Part shown: piece after piece, positions 18,819 through 48,798 of the stretch
How positions within the stretch are numbered: the stretch's first letter is position 1
How the letters are laid out: each line of letters starts with the position of its first letter
Source: Owenweeksia hongkongensis DSM 17368
GTDB taxonomy: Bacteria; Bacteroidota; Bacteroidia; Flavobacteriales; Schleiferiaceae
DNA length: 64,000 nucleotides
Direction of reading: 5' to 3'
Assembly: GCA_945907425.1 (NCBI GenBank)
Contig: CAMDTE010000003.1
Span: forward strand, 1-64,000
The notes under the pieces: generated by a model
What the model saw: the letters and a program-made list of their open reading frames with translations, nothing else
Databases searched by the model: none
What the model was told of the DNA's origin: nothing
Position numbers and translations under genes: made by a program

Positions 18819-19478
18819 GTGAAAACCATTCATTGGTCAGAGAAAATGCCTTCACAAGAGGCCGCAGACCGTGTCCGCCCCTTAGTGGATGCCTTCAGCG
18901 GAACGGTGCACGTGGTCAAGCCGCGTCACAGCAAGTGGGGCGATTTTAGGCCTTCTTTTCGCGGAAGTCCTGCGCGGATTCGAATCAATAGTGACCTTCC
19001 CGCAGAATCCTTTTTGGTGACTTTGTTGCATGAATTAGCGCACGCGCACGTGGAAGAAGCGTGGGTTCGGGGGCCCGAGCCCAAAACCCTACTCCAAAAG
19101 TGGGGCCTAAGACGGCGAGTTCCTCGCCCTTTGCCGCACGGAGTGGAGTGGCAAAATGCGTACGCTGCCTTGCTCCGCCCTTTTTTGGAAGCTTCTATTT
19201 TTAGTTTTGTCGTGGCTCAGGCACTTCAAAAAAATGTGCACAAACCCAAAGCTTCCTGTGGCGCAGATACCGCTCTATTGAAAGCACTCATGCCACACCA
19301 AATCGCTGGTTTCACCGTTTCCGATGTGCAGGAGGGAAGTCAATTTCGATTGGAAAATGGACGTCGATTCATCAAAGGACCCAAAAGACGTACCCGATTT
19401 GCCTGTACAGATTGCGAGAGTGGTCGTACTTTTGCCGTGCACCCATTGGCCAGTGCTCTTTTAATAGATCCTGTATGA
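18819..19478 (+). CDS. SprT-family zinc metalloprotease-like protein
   Basis: SprT/Spartan-like proteins are zinc proteases, and eukaryotic members cut DNA-protein crosslinks. The bacterial role is unclear. The 219-residue product has the catalytic zinc motif HELAH at residues 71-75, and a CTDC pair near residue 194 that could form part of a C-terminal zinc site. The GTG start follows directly on the TAA of the tiny lipoprotein gene, and its stop overlaps purK by four bases. It is thus translationally embedded in an operon with purine-biosynthesis genes. Confidence 0.85.
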   Translation: MKTIHWSEKMPSQEAADRVRPLVDAFSGTVHVVKPRHSKWGDFRPSFRGSPARIRINSDLPAESFLVTLLHELAHAHVEEAWVRGPEPKTLLQKWGLRRRVPRPLPHGVEWQNAYAALLRPFLEASIFSFVVAQALQKNVHKPKASCGADTALLKALMPHQIAGFTVSDVQEGSQFRLENGRRFIKGPKRRTRFACTDCESGRTFAVHPLASALLIDPV

Positions 19479-20647
19479 CGACATCGCCTTTTTCCAACCC
19501 TCAATTTCAACTCGCCGTTGTAGGGGGTGGGCAATTGGGGAAAATGTTGGTTGCCGAAGCGCGAAGGATGGATATTTCCGTTCATATTTTGGACCCTTCG
19601 GCGGATGCGCCAGCCCAATTCGGAGCCCAGTCCTTTACGCAAGGATCTTTTCTGGATTTCGATACCGTGGTCGCTTTTGGTCGACAAGCTTCGGCAGTGA
19701 CCATTGAGCTAGAAGCTGTCAATGTGGATGCCCTGGAGCAATTGGAAAAGGAAGGAATTCCTGTTTATCCTGAGTCCCGCGTATTGCGACTCCTACAAAA
19801 CAAGCCATCGCAAAAAGACACATTTCAAAAGGCGGGCATTCCCACCTCTGCTTATGAGTCCTTCCCCTCCGTTCAGGCCCTCCATCAAGCCCGTGAATCC
19901 GGGAAATGGCCGCTACCCTTTGTGTGGAAAATTGCCATGGGCGGGTACGATGGGTTTGGCGTTACTATAGTAAAAACGGAAGAGCAGGCGCAACAATTAC
20001 CTGTTGGCCCTTGCCTTGTGGAAGAGTGTGTTTCCATCGCTCTGGAAGTGGCCGTTCAAGTGGCACGGCATCCCAACGGAACGGTGGCGGTCTATCCTGT
20101 GTGCGATATGGAGTTCCATCCAACGGCCAATCAAGTGGAATTTGTTCTGGCTCCGACGGTCCTTTCTTCTGCCTTGGCGTTAGAAGCACAGTCATTGGCT
20201 CTGCGTACCCTGGAAGCATTGGATATGCATGGTCTTTTATCGGTAGAACTGTTTTACACTACCGATGGGAATTTGTTGGTCAACGAAGTGGCTCCAAGAC
20301 CTCACAACTCAGGGCATTGGACCCTTGAAGGTGCAGCCACCTCTCAATTTGAGCAATTGCTGCGCCTGTGTGCCGATTTGCCTTTGGGATCTACCGAATT
20401 GCTTCACCCTGCCGCAATGGCCAACGTGGTCGGCGCAGAAGGCTACTCGGGACCTGTTTTTTACGAAGGTGTGCAGGAACTTATGGCGATGCCTTTGGTT
20501 TATTTGCATGTGTACGGAAAGTCCCACACTCGTTCTTTCCGGAAAATGGGACATCTCACTGCTTTGGGCGCGACGCGCGCAGAAGCTCGATCGCGCGCCG
20601 AGGCGGCGCGCGATGCTATTCGCGTTGTAACTTCACCTAAATTTTAA
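19475..20647 (+). CDS. purK: 5-(carboxyamino)imidazole ribonucleotide synthase
   Basis: PurK uses ATP and bicarbonate to turn AIR into N5-CAIR in purine synthesis. The 390-residue ATP-grasp protein shows [18 protein letters not shown] at the N-terminus, [15 protein letters not shown] (ATP-grasp loop) and [15 protein letters not shown] near residue 275, which are standard PurK motifs. The ATG at 19475 overlaps the sprT stop (ATGA). The upstream open-frame extension is not supported. purE follows after four bases. The last part of the gene contains a strong GC-rich hairpin (20590-20614). Confidence 0.97.
20590..20614. repeat. Perfect 11-bp GC-rich inverted repeat in the purK 3' end
   Basis: The arms ATCGCGCGCCG and CGGCGCGCGAT are separated by AGG, giving a very stable hairpin about 33 bases before the purK stop and 38 before purE. 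There is no T-run, so it is not a classical terminator. It lies in sequence coding for the Ala/Arg-rich helix [11 protein letters not shown]. Confidence 0.75.
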
Positions 20648-35768: not shown

Positions 35769-37144
35769 GCGCCTATACCTTAACTGCCCCTGTATCGCTC
35801 TCCGGAACGGGTATTCATACGGGTGTATCGGCTCACGTCACGCTCAAGGGCGCGCCTGCGGGGCATGGGATTGTTTTTTACAGAATGGATTTACCGGGTC
35901 AACCGGCCTTGCGGGCATCGGCAGCGCATGTCTCTCCCTCTCCGCGCTGCACCCTGCTAAAATCAGGAGAAACCACAGTGCATACACCAGAACATCTTTT
36001 GGCTGTGCTCACTCAATTGGGATTGTGGGATGTACGTATAGAAGTCAATGGCCCAGAAATTCCCATATTGGACGGCAGTGCTATGCCTTGGCTGCAAGAA
36101 TTATTGCCCGTCCGAGCGAAAAAGAAAACCCCCGCCAAGAATACGCTGTATTTAAAAGAAAGAATAGAATGGCACGATCCAAGCACCGGCGCACATTTTA
36201 TTGCGGAGCCACACCCCCGTTTGGACGTCACCATAGAACTGGACTATCCTTCTGAAGCCATCGGCCCAAGGAAAGCTCATTGGAATCAAGACCAGCCTTT
36301 GGCGGACATTGCTCGCGCGCGCACCTTTAGTTTCTTACACGAAATCAAGCCCCTTTTGCAGGCAGGCTTGCTTCAAGGGGTAGCTCTGGGCTGCGGAGTG
36401 GTGTACGTCCACCCCGATCACACAAAAGAAGACGATTTATCCTGGGCCGCGCCGCTGGGCGGAAATTTTACGTCACCTCTCCAGCCCGGACCGCTTCCTC
36501 AAACACCTACGTTGATGGAAAATGAAGCTGCCCGCCACAAATGTTTGGATTTGATTGGCGACCTTGCGCTCTTGGAAGCTCCTTTGTGTGTAAAAATTAC
36601 AGCGATTCGACCCGGTCACGCTGCCAACAATGCTTTTGCTAAATTGTTACTTGAAAAAATGGAAACAACCAAAAACCTAACACCCCCTTGGGACATCAAT
36701 GCAGCTCCGCTCATGGACGTTGTTCAAATCATGAATGTCCTTCCCCACCGCCCCCCCTTTTTGTTGGTGGATCGGATCTTAGAAATGTCTGAAGATCATG
36801 TGGTGGGCACCAAGGCTATCACCATGAACGAACCTTTTTTTACAGGACATTTTCCCGGCGCGCCTGTGATGCCTGGTGTATTGATCATTGAAGCCATGGC
36901 ACAGTGCGGGGGCATCTTGGCTTTGAGCACCGTACCGGATCCTGAAAATTACCTGACCTACTTCTTGAAAATGGACGAAGTGAAATTTAAGCAAAAAGTA
37001 ATTCCCGGTGATACCCTGGTATTCGTCCTTACATTGCTTGAACCCATTCGTCGAGGCATCGTTAAAATGAGCGGGAAAGCCTATGTTGGTGATAAGCTCA
37101 CAACAGAAGCACTACTTACTGCGTTAATAACAAAAGATAAATAA
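35765..37144 (+). CDS. lpxC/fabZ: Bifunctional UDP-3-O-acyl-N-acetylglucosamine deacetylase / 3-hydroxyacyl-ACP dehydratase (LpxC-FabZ fusion)
   Basis: This fusion combines the committed lipid A deacetylase with a fatty-acid-synthesis dehydratase. Such fusions are known in Bacteroidota. The 459-residue protein has the LpxC part first, with VHTPEHLLA (metal site, His77), DGSAMPWL and HKCLDLIGDLAL. From about residue 315 the FabZ hot-dog domain follows: LPHRPPFLLVDRI (catalytic His) and GHFPGAPVMPGVLIIEAMAQ (catalytic Glu). The ATG overlaps the lpxD stop, and lpxA follows after 11 bases. Fusion would keep acyl-chain supply and lipid A commitment in step. Confidence 0.96.
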   Translation: MSAYTLTAPVSLSGTGIHTGVSAHVTLKGAPAGHGIVFYRMDLPGQPALRASAAHVSPSPRCTLLKSGETTVHTPEHLLAVLTQLGLWDVRIEVNGPEIPILDGSAMPWLQELLPVRAKKKTPAKNTLYLKERIEWHDPSTGAHFIAEPHPRLDVTIELDYPSEAIGPRKAHWNQDQPLADIARARTFSFLHEIKPLLQAGLLQGVALGCGVVYVHPDHTKEDDLSWAAPLGGNFTSPLQPGPLPQTPTLMENEAARHKCLDLIGDLALLEAPLCVKITAIRPGHAANNAFAKLLLEKMETTKNLTPPWDINAAPLMDVVQIMNVLPHRPPFLLVDRILEMSEDHVVGTKAITMNEPFFTGHFPGAPVMPGVLIIEAMAQCGGILALSTVPDPENYLTYFLKMDEVKFKQKVIPGDTLVFVLTLLEPIRRGIVKMSGKAYVGDKLTTEALLTALITKDK

Positions 37145-46585: not shown

Positions 46586-47518
46586 TTATTTCTGCGGTAA
46601 AGATAGCAAGATGCGGTGGGTGCGGGCTTGATCATCGGCATATTCTCCACGAATCTTTTGAGCGATTTCCGTGGGCAAGTCCGGTTTTTTCACGGTTTGA
46701 AGGAGCAATTGTAACGCGTTTACTACGGCCGTAGGGATGAAGCGGCGCGCGGCCTGGGCCGCGCCGCTGGCGTGAAGCCAGCGGTTGAGCCGCGGGAACC
46801 GCGGCGGTCGCGCCGCAAATTGCGGAACATCGGGTAGGCTCGGAAGGGGGCTTACGCCCAGGTGGGAAAAAACCCGATGGGCTGTTTTTAAGGGCTGATG
46901 CATCAGATCATCCAAAGAAAGAACCAGTATGTTTTTTTTAGGGAAAACCGCTAAGAAACGCTCCAAAGCTTCTGCGTACAATCCCAATTCATAAAAATTT
47001 TCAGAGATTCCCCATCCTTTGGGCTGACGACGTCGATCCCTTTCCCATTCATCGGCAAAGGTACCCGAAACATATCCGTACCGAAGGGCCATCAAATAAT
47101 GCGAAAACGCCCGTTGCACCGGATCGCGTAAAACGATGATGATTTTTGCATCCGGAGAGAATGCAGCGATTTCATCGGGCGCTCTTTGACTGAAAAAATA
47201 CCCCGTACTGCACTCGCCCAGGACCTGATGCGGCAAAGCATCGGCAAACAATTGTAGGTATTTTTCCTGGTCTCGGACAAAAGCCAAATGCACTTTCTTC
47301 AACGGTCGTTTCTGAAAATACTCTTCCTGCAAAGGCGGCGTTTGGGCCAAATAGGCCGGGGAAAATAGGGCCGGGTCTATATCGGAACCGAAAAAATGAG
47401 GCTCTTTCACCGGGGAAAGAAATACGTCCGGATGAGCCTCCAGCCAACCGGCTAAGGTGGTAGTTCCACACTTGGCCGCTCCTACAAGAAAAAAAGACGG
47501 GCGATTCGTTGGCTCCAT
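46586..47518 (-). CDS. Sulfotransferase (PAPS-dependent)
   Basis: The enzyme should move a sulfate group from PAPS to a sugar or other hydroxyl acceptor. The 310-residue protein has the 5'-phosphosulfate-binding loop GAAKCGTTTLAGWL (from residue 13) and the 3'-phosphate-binding segment VLRDPVQRAFSHY near residue 137. The ATG at 47518 follows the flippase stop by eight bases. An open-frame extension uses a TTG inside the flippase end and is not supported. The neighbours (flippase, chain-length protein, ligase, glycosyltransferase) suggest that its acceptor is a surface polysaccharide. The C-terminal third contains the GC-rich hairpin cluster at 46741-46816. Confidence 0.9.
   Translation of the reverse strand: MEPTNRPSFFLVGAAKCGTTTLAGWLEAHPDVFLSPVKEPHFFGSDIDPALFSPAYLAQTPPLQEEYFQKRPLKKVHLAFVRDQEKYLQLFADALPHQVLGECSTGYFFSQRAPDEIAAFSPDAKIIIVLRDPVQRAFSHYLMALRYGYVSGTFADEWERDRRRQPKGWGISENFYELGLYAEALERFLAVFPKKNILVLSLDDLMHQPLKTAHRVFSHLGVSPLPSLPDVPQFAARPPRFPRLNRWLHASGAAQAARRFIPTAVVNALQLLLQTVKKPDLPTEIAQKIRGEYADDQARTHRILLSLPQK
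46741..46816. repeat. GC-rich cluster of overlapping inverted repeats inside the sulfotransferase gene
   Basis: Four perfect inverted repeats sit in 76 bases: 46741-46768 (AGCGGCGCG / CGCGCCGCT), 46764-46784 (CCGCTGGC / GCCAGCGG, loop GTGAA), 46789-46805 (GCCGCGG / CCGCGGC, loop GAA) and 46801-46816 (GCGGCG / CGCCGC). The first two share arms, as do the last two, so they form alternative pairs. The segment is about 80 percent G+C in a near-50-percent window. It codes for an Ala/Arg-rich stretch. Confidence 0.8.
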
Positions 47519-47526
47519 ATCTGCTG

Positions 47527-48798
47527 TTAACGCCAAAACAAAAAAGTTCTTATCCCTGTTTTTTTATACACCTCCCTTAACGCCCACACATTCCAAAGAA
47601 CAATGGTAAAAGAGGTGGCCATGGCTGATCCCAACAAGCCCAACCAAGGAATCAATAGGATGTTGCCCAGGATGTTGACAATAACGCCTAGAATTAAGGT
47701 GTTTCGGGCGGCTTTTTCATTTCCTGTCATGTTCAGTAGATAAAGAACGGGGCCGCACAAGGCGTTGGACAATTGTCCGATGGCTAACACCCGCAACAAA
47801 TCAGCGTACAATGCGAAATCAGAACCAAAGAAACCAAGAAAAAAGGGTGCCCCCGCAAACAAAACAACAAAAGCAGGGACGGAGATGACGGTATTAATCC
47901 AGGCAATTCTTTTCACGGCGTTTTGCAAGGAGTCCATTTTTCTTTTGGCCCAGTACCTAGAAATATCGGGCGCCAATTGGGCATTGACAGCAAACTGAGC
48001 AAAAATAATGAGCGTGGAAACTTTGTAGGCCACGCGGTATACACCCACGGAAGATTCATCTAAAAAATAACCAATCAAAAGGGTGTCTGACCACATCAAT
48101 ACGGTATACAATAAACTGCTGACAAAAAATACCGTCGCCGTAGGGAAATGCACCTTGGCATGAGACCACGCCTCTTTCCATGAAACACCGAACAATGGAA
48201 TCCACGATTTGATGATCCAAGGAATAAAAGGAAGAAGGGCGAGGAAGATATAAAGAATCGGGCTGTGCGCCTGAAAGAGCAACAAAAGAATGGATGCTAC
48301 GAAAGTCAAAGAACCATATTGCCAAAGGCCGTAGGCCAACATGTTGTTTTGCGCTCTCCATACATCGGATTGCAATTGAAACCAAGACCACGGCAACAAA
48401 AGAACGGCGACATACAACAGCGAATCTTCTAACGCGGGGGCGTGAAAGAGATTAGACAACAAACCGCGTGACAACACCAATAGGATGCTCAAGAGCAAGG
48501 CAAATCCTGTTACCAAAAGAAAGGAACCCGCAAGAATTCGTTTTTGCTCCTGCCACTGGCCTTTGTGCGCAGGGAGTTCCCGAACCACCAAACCATCGTA
48601 CCCCCAGCGAGCCACTACACCTGCCAGCGATAAAAAAGTAAAGACCAACTCAAAATGGCCATAGCCTTCTTTGCCCATGGTTTTAACCATGAGGTAGACA
48701 AAAGCATAACCAGAAAGCGCCCCCAGGACTTTGAGCGTTAAAACCATTCCGCTTCCCCTAAGTAATCGCTGCCAATACGGATTGAGTGGTGTGGCCAT
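47527..48798 (-). CDS. Polysaccharide flippase (Wzx/oligosaccharide flippase family)
   Basis: Wzx-type flippases turn lipid-linked oligosaccharide units over the inner membrane. The 423-residue protein has about 12 membrane helices, with the N-terminal GSGMVLTLKVLGALSGYAFVYLMVK typical of this family (shown in parts; residues 10-35). The ATG at 48798 is chosen because it starts the first helix region, and a GACCTTTG box ends five bases before it. It is divergent from the glycosyltransferase gene, with only 26 bases between the two start codons. Its stop is eight bases before the sulfotransferase start. Confidence 0.88.
   Translation of the reverse strand: MATPLNPYWQRLLRGSGMVLTLKVLGALSGYAFVYLMVKTMGKEGYGHFELVFTFLSLAGVVARWGYDGLVVRELPAHKGQWQEQKRILAGSFLLVTGFALLLSILLVLSRGLLSNLFHAPALEDSLLYVAVLLLPWSWFQLQSDVWRAQNNMLAYGLWQYGSLTFVASILLLLFQAHSPILYIFLALLPFIPWIIKSWIPLFGVSWKEAWSHAKVHFPTATVFFVSSLLYTVLMWSDTLLIGYFLDESSVGVYRVAYKVSTLIIFAQFAVNAQLAPDISRYWAKRKMDSLQNAVKRIAWINTVISVPAFVVLFAGAPFFLGFFGSDFALYADLLRVLAIGQLSNALCGPVLYLLNMTGNEKAARNTLILGVIVNILGNILLIPWLGLLGSAMATSFTIVLWNVWALREVYKKTGIRTFLFWR

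Follow-up and report, generated by a model that had tools for sequence, protein, structure and literature searches.

A cluster of GC-rich hairpins in a sulfotransferase gene of Owenweeksia hongkongensis and its possible origin by template switching

The palindromic elements of Rickettsia are multi-copy insertions in which palindromic DNA is read in frame inside genes. Template switching has been described in other systems: quasipalindrome mutations in E. coli are reported to arise by a template switch (PMC7202029), the arms of inverted repeats in yeast genes to become homogenised (PMC8604942), and template switching to be a source of RNA stems (PMC8794818). Coding palindromes have also been described in the mitochondria of Nematomorpha, and the authors of that paper, who suggest template switching there too, refer to previous studies of quasipalindrome correction and of inverted repeats in Proteobacteria (PMC6649704).

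The locus described here lies in O. hongkongensis DSM 17368 (G000; contig CAMDTE010000003.1), within a window of 64,000 nucleotides that forms the whole stretch of DNA analysed, and was compared with its counterparts in two congeners (G001 and G002). Like the Rickettsia elements, it is palindromic DNA in frame within a gene; unlike them, it is neither inserted nor present in a second copy. It shares with the quasipalindrome template switches of E. coli and yeast the combination of perfect arms in coding DNA and replacement without a change of length, and in two other genes of the genome, a methyltransferase gene and one that we take to be PAP2-like, one arm is the exact reverse complement of a conserved arm. 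It differs from them in that the evidence is comparative, between species, and in that the donor arm of the sulfotransferase hairpins is not distinguishable. The Nematomorpha palindromes are likewise perfect inverted repeats in protein genes with both arms translated, and include overlapping, competing hairpins as the present segment does, but they are mitochondrial and reach 284 bp (PMC6649704), whereas here the DNA is bacterial, with stems of 7-9 bp at the locus and of 13-17 bp in the clear cases in other genes.

The sulfotransferase gene and its hairpins

The gene occupies 46586-47536 on the minus strand and consists of a 316-residue ORF with a TTG start; the true start may lie slightly further in. 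Its product matches Pfam Sulfotransfer_3 (E 9.3e-16) and Sulfotransfer_1 (E 5.7e-12), with scores above the curated cut-offs for membership of both families (PF13469, 59.2 bits against 27; PF00685, 46 against 22). With a profile of the homolog alignment, the top match among sequences of solved structure was 3rnl, a named sulfotransferase (E 9e-88). A structure model of the protein, built from 22 sequences (the window protein and those of 21 of 38 loci; model residue n is ORF residue n+8), had a mean pLDDT of 92.8. In the gene's own direction a 436-residue ORF lies upstream and a 336-residue ORF downstream, presumably flippase and chain-length genes, and in both congeners the sulfotransferase gene is flanked by ORFs of the same kind.

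The GC-rich segment, 46742-46816, is read on the minus strand as codons 241-265, which in the model form a loop and then two helices, close to the C-terminus. It has a G+C content of 0.84 and a GC3 of 0.92, and a counterpart at the DNA level was found only in the two congeners. The sequence-only reading had placed four perfect, GC-rich hairpins inside a sulfotransferase gene, in a stretch of about 80% G+C that stood far above the window average, and both observations were borne out. The stems are 7-9 bp long and lie within 46741-46805. A hairpin with a 9-bp stem and a loop of 10 (46741-46768), imperfect in the two congeners, encloses a perfect inverted repeat with an 8-bp stem and a loop of 2 (46747-46764). 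Hairpin 2 (46764-46784, 8-bp stem, loop of 5) has all eight of its pairs invariant across the three species, and hairpin 1 (46789-46805, 7-bp stem, loop of 3) is kept in all three, with one pair changed on both sides. Two further 8-bp arms, 46742-46749 on the left and 46809-46816 on the right, pair with each other and could close a cloverleaf, which is possible as DNA or as coding-strand RNA and whose outer arms enclose the hairpins.

Over 46742-46817 the G+C content is 82.9% (0.829), against a window mean of 48.9% (0.489, sd 0.060, for 76-nt windows over the 64 kb); the next separate 76-nt stretch in the window reaches 0.697. The segment is also the most GC-rich 76-nt stretch in a 384-kb sample of the genome, where the second, at 0.763, is another coding palindrome. 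Of 2000 dinucleotide shuffles of the segment, 0.3% had as many such hairpins, and when the window was resampled 20 times with a block-wise Markov model, one resample had a 76-nt stretch with four.

Folding was similarly extreme. All shuffle and permutation values for the segment are post hoc, since it was picked for being extreme: as minus-strand RNA, 46735-46822 folds with -56.9 kcal/mol (z -5.5 against dinucleotide shuffles), and when the G000 sequence was permuted with protein and codons kept (n=1000), 0.4% of the versions folded equally well, compared with 2.5% for G002 and 24% for G001, so that there is an excess of folding in G000 and G002 and not in G001. When 1312 coding windows of 87 nt, drawn from 43 genes of the window, were compared, the segment had the lowest energy, and the next separate one stood at -40.8. 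Its z against 60 codon permutations was -3.7 to -3.9, which was exceeded at one other place. This place, the coding stretch 19071-19157, ranks first among the tested windows by that z (-4.1).

Homologs, copies and conservation of the segment

A protein search of 99 genomes matched 47, and homologs were aligned from 24 of the 29 loci L007-L035, the five whose best hit lay on the minus strand being left out. All 24 have residues at the position of the segment (22 to 29, against 25 here, with exactly 25 in 15 of them), and the sulfotransferases of G001 and G002 align across it without a gap. These alignments speak against a palindromic element inserted in frame, which had been one suggestion made from the sequence. 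Another, that the segment is a site of phase-variable deletion, found no support: the perfect direct repeats that flank it are nothing beyond chance-like 7-mers, and all three species retain the segment. The nearest direct repeat is a 16-nt pair of 75% identity (46728-46743 and 46763-46778). For the sequence-only reading, homologs with the same residues in non-palindromic codons would have been a refutation. No such homologs turned up; in the two whose residues are nearly identical here, hairpins 1 and 2 retain their palindromic codons. In distant homologs the motif around PRFP-LN-WL recurs partly, with other codons.

A search of the genome for the same arms, which had been proposed as well, returned only matches of 17-19 bases elsewhere. 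At E 0.01 the DNA search matched 3 of 99 genomes (G000, G001 and G002), in the same gene each time, and the G000 genome held one full match to the segment and four of 17-19 bases. A covariance-model search matched 3 of 60 genomes, at one place each. In some genomes the candidates were scored only in part (in G001, 9 of 10 for the DNA search and 71 of 157 for the covariance model), so that a weak further copy could be missed. Phages and plasmids gave no match to the segment at E 0.01, and a virus search for hairpin 2 with one 23-letter pattern gave 0 matches. Within the window, the 18 bases at 36441-36458 are identical to part of the segment (E 0.0098); they are the only other match of the DNA search and probably a chance one.

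We rejected a known RNA family or tRNA gene at the segment, as none of its four weak Rfam matches reached the gathering score and no tRNA gene was detected in it. A repeat family was rejected as well, no second copy having turned up in G000 or in the relatives searched. The segment is resident protein-coding DNA and not an insertion.

The segment stands out in its similarity to the congeners. Its DNA identity is 85% to G002 and 83% to G001, compared with 53% and 54% for the remainder of the gene, and the match extends over 81-90 bp. In the congeners its G+C content is 0.80-0.83, against 0.63-0.64 for their sulfotransferase genes, and its GC3 is 92% in all three species, whereas that of the whole gene is 52% in G000 and 71-72% in the congeners. 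Codons 239-267 have a G+C content of 0.76, where 0.62 would be expected from the amino acids and the gene's usual third bases and the gene itself has 0.52; the rise from the expected 0.62 to 0.76 arises from third positions.

At residues shared by G000 and G002 the same codon is used in 15 of 21 cases within the segment and in 51 of 140 outside it (p 0.004), and the corresponding counts for G000 and G001 are 13 of 19 and 55 of 142 (p 0.024). When G001 and G002 are compared with each other, segment and remainder do not differ (20 of 22 in the segment, 219 of 253 outside). When the genes syntenic between G000 and G001 were divided into 75-nt bins with at least 18 shared residues, 17 of 392 bins, probably including that of the segment itself, reached 70% same codons, and two other syntenic regions had a larger local contrast in identity to their own gene. 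The identity peak was therefore rejected as proof of constraint at the DNA level, other syntenic windows reaching similar values. In the alignment of the three alleles, which are too few for selection on structure to be shown, two pairs have changed on both sides, a covariation equalled or exceeded in 104 of 500 shuffles. Only G000 has the third hairpin and the closing arms in perfect form; both are partly broken in the congeners.

Proposed template switching and its alternatives

What gave rise to the hairpins? We propose that the segment is GC-rich resident coding DNA whose hairpins were most likely made, or perfected, by template switching during replication, and we hold this with about even confidence. 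Codons for proline, arginine and alanine make the segment GC-rich, and the third positions of the genus add more. During replication the nascent strand would fold back at an imperfect inverted repeat close by, so that one arm is overwritten with the reverse complement of the other and the length stays the same. Hairpins 1 and 2 are common to the three species; the copying would have acted on a stretch that was GC-rich beforehand, and divergence would have followed.

Template switching at inverted repeats predicts exact arms, constant length and one conserved arm. The sulfotransferase gene does contain perfect inverted arms, with no change of length relative to its homologs. No single copying event is readable from the three alleles, and both arms of hairpin 2 differ from those of distant homologs. 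The stems, at 7-9 bp, are shorter than those of the clear cases (13-17 bp). That template switching made these particular arms is probable by analogy with the clearer cases elsewhere in the genus, which are described below. No function beyond coding is assigned to the segment.

A stretch rich in Pro, Arg and Ala with G- or C-ending codons could also give hairpins by composition, at what would simply be the most extreme place in the window. The sequence-only reading had allowed for something close to this, codon use for an Ala/Arg-rich helix, and that account largely stands: in the model the residues form a loop with two helices, and a G+C of 0.62 is already expected from the amino acids if the third bases are those usual for the gene. 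PRFPR written as CCG CGG TTC CCG CGG is palindromic through codon choice, codon-permuted versions of the G001 segment fold as well as the original in 24% of cases, and four hairpins in 76 nt arose in one of the 20 window-wide resamples. What goes beyond codon use is the third positions (GC3 of 0.92 in the segment, 0.52 in the gene) and the folding in G000, which 0.4% of codon-permuted versions equal; the sharing of codons between G000 and G002 (15 of 21 in the segment, 51 of 140 elsewhere in the gene, p 0.004) also counts against chance. We consider chance a serious contender, if a rather doubtful one. That selection maintains the hairpins for a role in mRNA or DNA, for example the slowing of ribosomes ahead of the C-terminal helix, seems to us improbable. 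Such selection would account for hairpins 1 and 2 in three species, for the pair of hairpin 1 changed on both sides and for the raised synonymous identity among G/C-ending codons (15 of 17 against 27 of 52 for G000-G002, p 0.0095; 13 of 15 against 31 of 53 for G000-G001, p 0.066). It sits poorly with covariation that does not go beyond shuffles, with a third hairpin and closing stem that are partly broken in the congeners, with G001 and G002 having no excess of synonymous conservation (20 of 22 against 219 of 253), with the 17 of 392 syntenic 75-nt bins that reach 70% same codons between G000 and G001, and with the lack of any Rfam family at its gathering score.

Two further explanations have the segment arrive from elsewhere. 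The climb in identity to the congeners, from 53-54% to 83-85% over a stretch of 81-90 bp, is what would be left if the AT-richer gene of G000 had received a short tract, by gene conversion or transfer, from a GC-rich relative. We regard such a tract as very unlikely, given that the segment has an extreme G+C content in the congeners as well (0.80-0.83 against 0.63-0.64), that it is similarly close to both of them (0.85 and 0.83), and that the local contrast in identity is larger still in two other syntenic regions. An in-frame insertion of a mobile palindromic element would explain a GC-rich, multi-hairpin stretch with sharp composition boundaries, but homologs have the residues, no further copy was found in G000 or in the relatives searched, and neither phages nor plasmids match at E 0.01; we give it almost no credence. 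By itself the cluster carries little weight; it illustrates that extreme-looking hairpins can turn out to be resident coding DNA.

Long perfect palindromes in other genes of the genus

For template switching, the long coding palindromes of the genus are a better lead than the sulfotransferase cluster. The PAP2-like gene, as we take it to be, has a 17-bp perfect stem with a 4-nt loop (L095 79-116, G000:C9). One arm codes for A-T-N-T-A of a conserved motif, and the other, its exact reverse complement, reads AAVLVA where the congeners have LALAIR or LALAFR. Seven of eight homologs are gapless at this palindrome, and the eighth (L173) is without one residue at its edge. The methyltransferase gene (PF10672) has a 15-bp perfect stem that encodes DSSARA / ARAEE (L094 19449-19482, G000:C8), again with one arm coding for conserved residues and the other its exact reverse complement; 7 of 7 homologs are gapless, and a further weak match, in G027, has a one-residue gap. 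An 11-bp stem lies in a YebC-like gene (PF01709; L089 3333-3357). A gene for a chorismate-binding enzyme (PF00425) carries an identical 16-bp palindrome in G001 (L038 14252-14287) and G002 (L216 1779-1814), and a Mur-ligase-like gene of G001, among others, contains further palindromes. In 100 kb of G001 the three most GC-rich 76-nt windows contain perfect palindromes, and the counterpart of the segment ranks fifth.

In 1053 kb of coding sequence from the genus (G000, G001 and G002) there were 11 intragenic stems of at least 13 bp, compared with 0.1 expected from codon permutation. Eight of the 11 are gapless against at least one homolog, the palindrome of the chorismate-binding enzyme being counted twice, once for each species. 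The remaining three are a terminator-like stem that is probably not in a gene (L040 7429) and two with no homolog through the stem among the sequences compared (L212 328 and L119 5867). The filters removed stems with an arm that begins with AAA or TTT and stems followed at once by TTTT or preceded at once by AAAA, and the ORFs counted were those of at least 150 codons, chosen by length, so that some may be false.

Nine other genomes of the family or order had 3 stems of at least 13 bp in 920 kb of coding sequence, and other bacteria had 0 in 289 kb; the latter set comprised 36 of 38 loci, the two congener loci being omitted, and its count carries no permutation control. The genus differed from the nine relatives with a one-sided p of 0.05 for stems of at least 13 bp, which became 0.11 when the terminator-like case was dropped and the shared palindrome counted once; for stems of at least 15 bp the one-sided p was 0.018, or 0.053 after the same exclusions. 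With counts of 3 in 920 kb of the relatives and 0 in 289 kb of other bacteria, the excess of long coding palindromes in the genus is only suggestive. An unfiltered count in a smaller sample gave 13 stems of at least 12 bp in 731 kb of the genus versus 5 in 602 kb of eight others. Stems of at least 9 bp in G000 were not far above expectation (12 versus 6.8). The coding sample of E. coli, at 41 kb, was too small as a baseline.

A wider reading, which we offer tentatively and with clearly less confidence than the local one, is that in this genus, where SbcCD was not recognised, long perfect palindromes arise in conserved genes by template switching and are retained, a single event rewriting a whole short peptide. 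The sulfotransferase cluster would then be an older, partly eroded product. If this were true, these small-genome bacteria would offer natural examples of template switching that rewrites conserved proteins, in which both arms and the homologs can be compared, with a possible link to the loss of the hairpin nuclease.

SbcCD cuts hairpins. SbcD had no match in G000, G001 or G002, and SbcC had none in G000 and only scraps of 19-20 bits in G001 and G002, these genomes being 84-94% complete. SbcD scored above its cut-off in 6 of the 40 genomes searched, and the same six have long SbcC matches; the cut-off for SbcC was reached by 0 of the 40, so its result says little. SbcCD went unrecognised in many relatives too, and the samples of three of them (G003, G007 and G010) contain no stem of at least 11 bp, while G009 has both SbcC and SbcD, yet also one 13-bp stem. 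Therefore, the absence of SbcCD does not alone explain the palindromes, and its loss was not supported as their cause.

Two further palindromes were seen. A genome from another genus of the same family (G013) has an 18-bp perfect palindrome in a putative 221-codon ORF (L123 19410-19449), and the window itself contains an 11-bp GC-rich hairpin at 20590-20614, near the 3' end of a PurK-like gene.
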